Shown piece after piece: positions 42,696-57,612 of a stretch of DNA of 64,000 bases; positions within the stretch are counted from its first letter, which is position 1; every line of letters begins with the position of its first letter. This stretch comes from Prochlorococcus sp. AG-402-N21 (lineage in GTDB: Bacteria > Cyanobacteriota > Cyanobacteriia > PCC-6307 > Cyanobiaceae). Position numbers and translations under genes: made by a program. The notes under the pieces are model-generated. The model ran no database searches, had not been told where the DNA came from, and saw only the letters and a list, made by a program, of their open reading frames with translations. The DNA is taken from assembly GCA_003216435.1 (NCBI GenBank), contig QCIW01000004.1, forward strand, positions 1-64,000. Direction: 5' to 3'.

Positions 42696-43946
42696 TTGAA
42701 GGTCTTGGACCCTTCATTATCATCACTATGGTCTCCTATATCTGGCGGGATAACTAGTCCGCGTGGGTTTAAGGCGTCTGGCATAAGATCAAACTTAAAA
42801 CCTTCTGGCAATCTAGACCTTGCTTTGCTTTTAGCACCTAATGATTCGATATGCGCAGGGACTTTTACTCAATCATCTATAAGGGCAGCTTGTGTAGATC
42901 TTTGCAAAAATAGACTCCATCAAAATAATGGACGAGTTAGGTCAGTTCTTATTAATTCAGGACAAGCCAATGCCTGTGTAGGTGATAGAGGACTAATAGA
43001 TACCTTGAAAGCTATTGAAGCAGTTGCAAAAAAATTGTGTTTAACACCATCGGAAGTCCTGATGTGCTCCACCGGTGTCATTGGCCAGCCAATACCGATG
43101 GATAACTTACTCGATGGTATTGATAATCTTGTAGAGCACTTAAATGAAAATGGAGGTAATTCTGCGGCTCAGGCAATATTGACAACTGATCTAATCGACA
43201 AGCAGATAGCATTTGAAGCTTTTTTGGGAGATAGGCGTGTGCGGATTGGTGGTATGGCAAAAGGCTCAGGAATGATTCATCCCAACATGGCAACTATGCT
43301 TGGTTATTTAACATGTGATGTTGGTATTGATTCTGAGTTATGGCACAAGATGATTAAACGAGTAGTTAATTCTTCTTTCAATGCGATTAGTGTTGATGGT
43401 GATACGAGTACCAATGATACTTTTCTAGCATTTAATGCTGGCAACTCTTTGGAGAATAAATATTTTGAAGCGTTGGAAGTGGGTTTATTGAAGACGTCTC
43501 AATATCTTGCCAAGTCAATCGCAAGAGATGGAGAAGGTGCAAATTGTTTAATAGAGGTTCATGTTGAAGGTACTCGGACTGATGACGATGCAAGACATAT
43601 TGCAAAAATTATTTGTAGCTCGTCTTTGGTGAAAACAGCTATACATGGTAAAGATCCTAATTGGGGTCGAATTTTGGCTGCTTTAGGTCGATCACGAGTA
43701 TCTTTTTCTTTGCAAGATGTGTCTCTTTGGATTGGTTCTTATCAATTAATTCAAACTGGAGAACCAATTCAGTTTGAACGTCAACAAGTTACCAATTATA
43801 TGAAAAAAAAGTTTTCAGGAAAATATTTGGAAGAAGATTCAGTTCTTATCCGACTTGTTGTAGGACCAGGTAAATGCCAAGGTGTTGCTTGGGGTTGTGA
43901 TTTATCATCTCAATATGTAGCGATCAATGCCGATTACACAACGTAA
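42696..43946 (+). CDS. argJ: Bifunctional glutamate N-acetyltransferase / N-acetylglutamate synthase
   Basis: 416 aa ornithine acetyltransferase, which makes acetylglutamate and recycles acetyl groups in arginine synthesis. The start is a TTG (42696 or 42705); no in-frame ATG precedes SPISGGITSPRGFKASG. The autoproteolysis site with the nucleophilic Thr is in HPNMATMLGYLTCD. CSTGVIGQP and GKDPNWGRILAALGRS are also diagnostic. The C-terminus is complete. Confidence 0.94.
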   Translation: MKVLDPSLSSLWSPISGGITSPRGFKASGIRSNLKPSGNLDLALLLAPNDSICAGTFTQSSIRAACVDLCKNRLHQNNGRVRSVLINSGQANACVGDRGLIDTLKAIEAVAKKLCLTPSEVLMCSTGVIGQPIPMDNLLDGIDNLVEHLNENGGNSAAQAILTTDLIDKQIAFEAFLGDRRVRIGGMAKGSGMIHPNMATMLGYLTCDVGIDSELWHKMIKRVVNSSFNAISVDGDTSTNDTFLAFNAGNSLENKYFEALEVGLLKTSQYLAKSIARDGEGANCLIEVHVEGTRTDDDARHIAKIICSSSLVKTAIHGKDPNWGRILAALGRSRVSFSLQDVSLWIGSYQLIQTGEPIQFERQQVTNYMKKKFSGKYLEEDSVLIRLVVGPGKCQGVAWGCDLSSQYVAINADYTT

Positions 43947-51701: not shown

Positions 51702-52230
51702 GTAGATTATATATACTCTCTCTTTGCAGCTCTTGCTGACCTTTTTTTTCATATAACGAATGCATGTTATCAATCCCTCTTTGTGAAGTTAACTTCATCT
51801 TTTGTTTTAATGTCGAAAATTTTGAGACGTATTAAATGATCGACTTCTTCAGCCTCTTTAGGTAAGGCTCATTATATATATATGGCGCAATTAAATGTGC
51901 GCATTTCGCTTTGATATCAAAGGTATTCTTATACAAGTGATTTTTATAGTGACCTTCACTAAGAAATGAATCTATTTTGGAAGTTGAGTAAAAGCGGGGA
52001 TTTGCGGAATAGAAGCTATTATTCCTGATTTTGAGGATTATTACGGAGGCGAAAATCAGTGAGATTCAATTAAAATTGGCTTTTAGCGTATAAATAAATA
52101 ATTCTAGGAATAAATTCTCAAAGTCAAAAAAAGCAATATTGTTTGGAGGAATTTTATCAATATCACATCATGTCAATATTTTCGTGTTTTAAGACTGACA
52201 AAACTATTTTTAGGAGTAACAATGTAATTA
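51702..52230. other. 529 bp spacer with a cluster of inverted repeats
   Basis: No gene is supported. Four inverted repeats lie close together: TGAAGTTAACTTCA (51784-51797), AGCCT/AGGCT (51851-51869), GCGCA/TGCGC (51885-51902) and CTTTGATATCAAAG (51909-51922). They could fold as a series of hairpins in either strand's transcript. A run of ATATATATAT precedes the third. The spacer also contains the upstream region of yfr1. Confidence 0.35.
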
Positions 52231-52304
52231 CAGGACAACTCCTCACACAATCGTTCTGTTGCAAAAAAGCACTTAGGTTCACAATTGGACTAGGTGCTTT
52301 TTTA
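52231..52304 (+). ncRNA. yfr1: Small RNA Yfr1
   Basis: The ultraconserved Yfr1 motif ACTCCTCACAC (52239-52249) lies between two stem arms, ACAGGA (52231-52236) and TTCTGT (52255-52260). A Rho-independent terminator follows (52264-52304). Size is about 70 nt. In cyanobacteria Yfr1 base-pairs with mRNAs, for example of outer-membrane porins, through this motif. Identity is from the motif plus the terminator layout; the exact 5' end is inferred. Confidence 0.85.
52264..52304 (+). terminator. Rho-independent terminator of yfr1
   Basis: The stem AAAAAAGCACTTAG (52264-52277) pairs with CTAGGTGCTTTTTT (52291-52304), 14 bp with one G-U pair, loop of 13 nt, ending in T-run. A nine-G run (52308-52316) follows directly. 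Confidence 0.85.
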
Positions 52305-52348
52305 ATGGGGGGGGGTTGTTAAATAGACACTTATAAGTAAAAATACTT

Positions 52349-52359
52349 GTGTGAGGAGT
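52349..52359 (+). promoter_or_regulatory. Exact complement of the Yfr1 motif inside yfr2a
   Basis: GTGTGAGGAGT is the reverse complement of ACTCCTCACAC, so the two transcripts can form an uninterrupted 11-bp duplex. The site lies at the 5' side of yfr2a, outside the GGAAAC loop. Chance of an exact 11-mer in the adjacent 100 nt is small. Confidence 0.8.
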
Positions 52360-52403
52360 AAGATCCTTTGAGCAGTGGAAACCTGGAAACACGCGCTCAA
52401 GAT

Positions 52404-52440
52404 CTACAAAAAACCCGCTCTAAAGCGGGTTTTTTTGTAG
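52404..52440 (+). terminator. Rho-independent terminator of yfr2a
   Basis: The stem CTACAAAAAACCCGCT (52404-52419) pairs with AGCGGGTTTTTTTGTAG (52424-52440), with one extra T and a short loop around CTAA. The GC core is CCCGCT/AGCGGG, followed by T-rich DNA. Confidence 0.88.
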
Positions 52441-52519: not shown

Positions 52520-52759
52520 ATGATTAAGGACAAGAAAAAAGACAAGAAAAAATGTAAGAAGAAAGGCAAAATAATGCTTGCTTATGGAGTGTGTCAATTA
52601 GGTTCGAGATTAGTGTCTGCTTGTGCATTGTTGGTAATAGCTTTTGGGCTGAGTGAACTTAGAAAAGAATCAAAACTTTTCAATCAATGTGTTGAAGAAG
52701 TCAGAGAGAATAGTCAGAGCTACTCAGCTTCTGTTCATTTTTGCCATGGGGGTAGTTAA
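52520..52759 (+). CDS. Small membrane protein with Lys-rich start
   Basis: 79 aa. The first 18 residues are almost all Lys/Asp/Gly (MIKDKKKDKKKCKKKGK). A membrane helix follows (LVSACALLVIAFGLSEL), then a polar tail with two cysteines (FNQCVEEVRENSQS and FHFC-like end). A start at the inner ATG (codon 19) would give a 61-residue protein. This looks like a picocyanobacterial orphan; function is not recognised. The promoter side faces the sRNA pair. Confidence 0.6.
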   Translation: MIKDKKKDKKKCKKKGKIMLAYGVCQLGSRLVSACALLVIAFGLSELRKESKLFNQCVEEVRENSQSYSASVHFCHGGS

Positions 52760-57271: not shown

Positions 57272-57296
57272 AAAAAGAGGAGCCCTTCCAGGCTCC
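57272..57296 (-). terminator. Terminator of ssrA
   Basis: On the minus strand the stem GGAGCC pairs with GGGCTCC across a short loop (TGGAA), then T residues. It ends the coding piece of tmRNA. Confidence 0.75.
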
Positions 57297-57545
57297 ACGG
57301 ATCACTTGGTTGATAAGGCTGATCTAACCCCATCTCTCTTAATAGAGTCAGGCTGCAACAAGTGCTGGCTGACGAGAGAAACTAACGATTTTGTTAGCGT
57401 TTATGTGTTTGCTCGTACCGAGCAGGCTTCAGTCATTCTCCTTATGCCCCGTCGAAACCATTGCAGCCCCAAAAAAATTTATGGAGCTGAGCGGAATCGA
57501 ACCGCTGTCCGAGACACTGGTTTGAACCACCTAGTCTATTAAGAA
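57275..57545 (-). ncRNA. ssrA: tmRNA, permuted two-piece form
   Basis: On the minus strand the order is acceptor piece first (ending GGTTCGATTCCGCTCAGCTCCA at 57482, a T-arm and acceptor strand), then a short spacer, then the coding piece starting at 57470 with GGGGCTGCAATGGTTTCGAC. The 7-bp acceptor stem GGGGCTG/CAGCTCC pairs. The tag frame in the coding piece encodes ANKIVSFSRQPALVAA and stops. This is the permuted two-piece tmRNA known from Prochlorococcus and Synechococcus. The mature CCA is not encoded. Both ends of the transcript are inferred. Confidence 0.92.
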
Positions 57546-57612
57546 TAGACAATACTATTTTGACAGAGCTTTCTTTTTTAAAGCAAGTCCTTTAAGAAGA
57601 ACTAGATTTTTT

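Follow-up and report, generated by a model that had tools for sequence, protein, structure and literature searches.

A tandem yfr10-yfr2 locus with complementary RNA motifs in an uncultured Prochlorococcus

In a 64,000-nucleotide stretch of the genome of Prochlorococcus sp. AG-402-N21 (contig QCIW01000004.1, positions 1 to 64,000; here called the window) an RNA carrying the Yfr1 motif and a Yfr2-type RNA are encoded in tandem, each with a predicted start and a predicted terminator, as had originally been proposed. This arrangement raises two questions: is the first RNA really Yfr1, and could the second act as its sponge? A scan of the window sequence located ACTCCTCACAC at 52238-52248 of the plus strand; on the same strand, 52349-52359 reads GTGTGAGGAGT, its exact complement. 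The original prediction had placed the complement correctly and the first 11-mer one base too far to the right, at 52239-52249. At the DNA level the two stretches are perfectly complementary over 13 nt (ACTCCTCACACAA at 52238-52250 and TTGTGTGAGGAGT at 52347-52359). By chance 0.03 matches to the 11-mer are expected in the window and two or more were found in 0 of 100 shuffles, a figure of little weight, since each of the two motifs is already known to be conserved in its family. In the whole genome the 11-mer occurs three times, namely in the true yfr1, at the window site and as the complement in the window yfr2.

The window very probably holds a tandem yfr10-yfr2 locus of Prochlorococcus, in which Yfr2 would titrate Yfr10 as well as the separately encoded Yfr1. 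An uncultured Prochlorococcus is thereby added to a known RNA-RNA sponge system. The locus itself is a further instance of this described system; new here are the distribution of the tandem, the test for co-variation and the division of the loci by spacer length.

Identity of the two RNAs

The upstream RNA carries ACUCCUCACAC, the Yfr1 motif, and had been labelled Yfr1. Yfr1 is an RNA of 54-69 nt with a single-stranded motif between two stem-loops (PMC2190773), and Yfr10 presents the motif in the loop atop a stem (PMC6778093). The predicted fold of the window RNA, with its 5' end at 52230, shows a 7-bp stem (ACAGGAC/GTTCTGT) which closes a 16-nt loop holding the motif, and the motif at 52238-52248 is 98% unpaired. 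It thus lies in a stem-loop rather than between two hairpins. A stem closing the motif was found at all 33 loci compared (the window and 32 related loci) with 14 distinct arm pairs, so that the pairing has been maintained despite sequence change. Three trxA-linked Yfr1 loci showed merely two pairs around the motif. Shuffled flanks produced a stem of at least 4 pairs in 19% and of at least 7 pairs in 0.6% of cases; the short stems of some relatives are consequently weak evidence when taken individually. The RNA lies directly 5' of the Yfr2-type RNA, a position that is reported for Yfr10 in high-light strains and is not universal.

The Rfam Yfr10 model (RF02362) matched the window RNA over its full length with 22.7 bits, which is below the gathering score of 43. 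This score says little because the model, which scores one high-light locus at 56 bits, also misses the loci of two genomes that we take to be NATL2A and SS120. It seems to be restricted to high-light strains. Nor does the score define the wider Yfr10 family, since the published homologues show little conservation beyond the motif. The motif-in-loop stem, the sub-threshold Yfr10 match and the same architecture at the 32 related loci point to a Yfr10-type RNA of about 74 nt at 52230-52303 (plus strand).

Could the window RNA nevertheless be Yfr1 itself, moved next to yfr2? The identical 11-mer is what it has in common with Yfr1. However, the Rfam Yfr1 model (RF01116) gave no match at the window locus even at E values up to 0.5, and the motif of Yfr1 is linear and flanked by two hairpins. 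Moreover, the genome possesses a separate yfr1 on contig C1 at 43743-43800 (L001:1480-1537; Rfam Yfr1, 57.9 bits), with the other plus-strand copy of the motif at 43764-43774. Its neighbours are the genes for IMP dehydrogenase (guaB) and thioredoxin (trxA), and guaB-yfr1-trxA is the canonical location of most yfr1 homologues (PMC2190773, PMC6778093). The place of yfr1 is therefore occupied elsewhere, which refutes a relocated Yfr1; we regard this reading as extremely improbable. The label "Yfr1" was wrong for the window RNA and is here corrected to Yfr10; a count of yfr1 genes that relies only on the motif would be misled by it.

The designation of the downstream RNA as Yfr2-type was right. 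The Rfam Cyano-1 model (RF01701) matched 52345-52410 with 49.5 bits and passed the gathering score of 41. Together with the predicted terminator and a 5' end placed by homology to MED4 and SS120 this match delimits an RNA of about 87 nt at 52349-52435 (plus strand). As in other members of the family a GGAAAC repeat loop and an unpaired 5' motif are present; the complement of the Yfr1/Yfr10 motif stands at the 5' end, and its first nine bases are 91-98% unpaired in the predicted fold. The single-stranded motifs of the two window RNAs are fully complementary, in line with the original prediction.

Two further Yfr2 copies are encoded in the genome (C3:72209-72272, L004; C1:90458-90524, L006). They carry TTGTGAGGAG or TTTGTGAGGAG, have a TGTGCCAGTT element upstream and pair over 10-12 nt. 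Two extra bases (TG) give the window Yfr2 a longer complement than these copies. The window Yfr2 also matches the true Yfr1, over 12 nt of DNA, and so, from its sequence, it looks like a general sponge and not like an exclusive partner of the neighbouring Yfr10.

Transcript ends and extent of the pairing

A promoter scan predicted CTGACA-17-AACAAT at 52195-52223 (plus strand) with a start 7 bases further on. Taken alone this promoter is weak (1 found versus 1.5 expected). The start that it implies, 52230, coincides with the first base of the stem, just as the published start of MED4 Yfr10 (346661; PMC2518516) does in its own stem; by analogy 52230 is the probable start of the window Yfr10. In the MED4 genome used for this comparison yfr1 lies at 1000744-1000797, in agreement with PMC1242208. 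A hairpin followed by a U-run at 52263-52303 is the predicted Yfr10 terminator. A simple terminator scan did not list this hairpin, probably on account of an internal bulge.

For Yfr2, TAAAAAT at 52338-52344 is the likely -10 element, judged from the relatives and from the mapped starts of MED4 and SS120; a GTAAAAATAC stretch in this region is common to most short-spacer relatives, and TATAAG at 52332-52337 is an alternative candidate. The RACE-mapped start of MED4 Yfr2 (346828) falls exactly at GTGTGTAGGAG and the listed start of SS120 Yfr2 exactly at GTGAGGAG. By analogy the window Yfr2 would start at 52349 or 52351, and the RNA duplex would therefore comprise 9-11 nt rather than 13, a start at 52351 reducing the complement to 9 nt. 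The predicted interaction energy of Yfr10 and Yfr2 in the window is -15.0 kcal/mol for a start at 52349 and -10.8 kcal/mol for a start at 52351. The terminator scan placed a hairpin with a U-run at 52408-52435 (plus strand) at the end of Yfr2. A terminator for each RNA, as originally claimed, is thus plausible. The two are not always separate molecules, given that a joint Yfr10-Yfr2 precursor of 270 nt has been reported in MED4 (PMC2518516).

Occurrence of the tandem and variation of its motifs

The tandem was surveyed in 71 genomes (70 family relatives and the source genome) by joining positions of the exact motif with Cyano-1 positions; a tandem was scored when Yfr2 followed the motif on the same strand at a distance of under 200 nt. 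At least 27 such pairs were found in at least 21 of the 71 genomes. The bearers are high-light strains, NATL2A and many uncultured single-cell genomes, so the distribution extends beyond the high-light strains. At six more loci the same layout occurs with a motif altered at one or two positions (L077, L080, L098, L110, L071 and L072). A wider contig scan returned 14 Prochlorococcus records and 9 matches in unrelated bacteria, which were taken as chance.

Conservation of the exact 11-mer complement in the Yfr2 of relatives, which the original prediction had used as its touchstone, was not observed: among the 27 listed tandem Yfr2 copies only that of the window has it. Twelve of the others carry GTGAGGAG, five TGTGAGGAG, seven GTGTG[T/A]AGGAG, the high-light form with one extra base, and two other forms. 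At least 11 other genomes of the family do have a Yfr2 with the full 11-mer complement; many of these exceed Prochlorococcus genomes in size. The core of the Yfr2 motif is conserved and the exact length of the complement is not.

The proposed check for co-variation of the two 11-mers was carried out and revealed no locus-specific co-adaptation: cognate Yfr10-Yfr2 pairs had a predicted energy of -18.0 kcal/mol versus -18.4 kcal/mol for non-cognate pairs (permutation p 0.95), in a test of low power because the Yfr10 side had been chosen for the exact motif. At the altered-motif loci, pairing survives as G-U where A8 or A1 has become G, and C5 to T leaves 8 contiguous pairs with the Yfr2 of the same locus. 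Other changes at these six loci disrupt pairing or fall outside it, and a clean signal of co-variation was not seen there.

Yfr2 as a sponge and the regulation of the tandem

Yfr10 and Yfr2 would each be transcribed separately, from their own start to their own terminator. Yfr10 would present ACUCCUCACAC in its hairpin loop and pair with mRNAs, and the complement at the unpaired 5' end of Yfr2 would bind Yfr10 and the separately encoded Yfr1. Yfr2 would in this way titrate both RNAs away from mRNAs and, as a reciprocal effect, would itself be shielded from RNase E. The present analysis supplies the sequences and predicted folds, assigns the RNAs to families, locates the true yfr1 and shows that the tandem recurs in relatives; interaction, competition and the RNase E effect were demonstrated by others in MED4 (PMC6778093), and the same may be expected in the source organism by analogy.

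Steglich et al. noted in 2008 that yfr10/yfr2, yfr12/yfr4 and yfr18/yfr5 adjoin and proposed base pairing (PMC2518516). Lambrecht et al. obtained Yfr2 together with Yfr1 and Yfr10 by pull-down in 2019, restored a Yfr1-repressed reporter with Yfr2, observed that small amounts of Yfr2 inhibit the pairing of Yfr1 or Yfr10 with ppa and found Yfr2 protected from RNase E (PMC6778093). The competition of Yfr2 for mRNA targets was shown in MED4 and E. coli; according to the same paper, high-light strains encode Yfr10 ahead of Yfr2, which may favour the interaction (PMC6778093). A sponge or decoy action of Yfr2, which had been offered as a possibility for the window, is hence a published mechanism (PMC6778093). 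Pairing was also more than "suggested before": pull-down, primer extension and a reporter assay had already shown it, and a 2020 paper on Nostoc reported a gel shift of Yfr1 and Yfr2 (PMC6974561). In Nostoc PCC 7120 the same motifs pair; in contrast to the window the partner tested was Yfr1, and Yfr10 does not appear in that paper (PMC6974561).

The yfr10-yfr2 locus of MED4, like yfr12-yfr4 and yfr18-yfr5, resembles the window locus in gene order, orientation and an upstream RNA with the motif in a loop; in MED4 and, by prediction, in the window, Yfr2 begins at the complementary motif and a terminator follows each RNA. The complement is uninterrupted in the window, whereas that of MED4 needs a bulged C. 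Fewer bases separate motif and Yfr2 in the window than in MED4, and the window spacer lacks the TGTG[AC]CA palindrome.

Two other explanations of the arrangement have to be weighed. The RNAs might act mainly as one read-through transcript whose motifs pair in cis and stay masked until processing. The 270-nt MED4 precursor agrees with this, and in the predicted read-through fold of the window the motifs do pair in cis, leaving the Yfr10 motif 1% unpaired. Against it stand the terminator with a U-run between the two RNAs, the mapped start of MED4 Yfr2 itself and the conserved operator-like element of the long-spacer relatives, which speaks for a separate promoter of Yfr2 in those relatives. We consider predominant read-through improbable. 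A quite possible alternative, compatible with titration by Yfr2, is that adjacency is functionally neutral: Yfr2 would act in trans as a sponge for every RNA with the Yfr1 motif, and common descent or duplication would account for the persistence of the tandem. Since no locus-specific co-adaptation was seen, being neighbours may be of no consequence in itself; predicted pairing does not favour cognate over non-cognate partners, the window Yfr2 fits the true Yfr1 over 12 nt too, the other two copies pair over 10-12 nt, and yfr10 and yfr2 lie apart in some genomes (the complete same-genus genome G003 and SS120). On the other hand, the tandem occurs in many of the sampled Prochlorococcus groups, two or three times per genome, which suggests retention. 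Titration of Yfr10 and Yfr1 by Yfr2 remains the preferred reading of the locus.

The spacers of tandem loci L008-L037 were compared. TGTG[AC]CA was found in 15 of 16 listed long-spacer tandems (143-189 nt from motif to Yfr2 core), usually as part of a palindrome (for example TGGCACATGTGACA) and at an almost constant position ahead of Yfr2, and in 0 of 11 listed short-spacer tandems (117-136 nt), including the window with its spacer at 52304-52348. The MED4 yfr2 spacer has the closely similar ACTGGCACATGTGACAATT, and the other two Yfr2 copies of the source genome do carry the TGTG[AC]CA element. The long-spacer palindrome may correspond to CGRE1, reportedly defined in a DNA Res paper of 2018; we name it CGRE1-like only. 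In MED4, PMM1637 binds yfr2 promoters that contain CGRE1 (PMC6778093). A rather doubtful possibility is that two regulatory sorts of tandem exist: long-spacer loci with an operator-like palindrome, likely a GntR-bound CGRE1, and short-spacer loci without it, whose sponge would escape control by the GntR regulator (nitrogen, high light) and serve as a constitutive buffer, with the other two Yfr2 copies of the genome being stress-responsive. The split indicates where differently regulated sponges might be sought.

Between the two RNA genes a run of nine G (52307-52315) is unusual at about 35% GC. Synteny of the flanking genes with relatives is nearly absent; the exception is a small lysine-rich ORF of 79 amino acids just after Yfr2 (52520-52759), which has no Pfam match and relatives with 49-50% identity near the tandem loci L068 and L069. 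A search of the window for RNA families also recovered a cyanobacterial two-piece (permuted) tmRNA at 57280-57566 on the minus strand.
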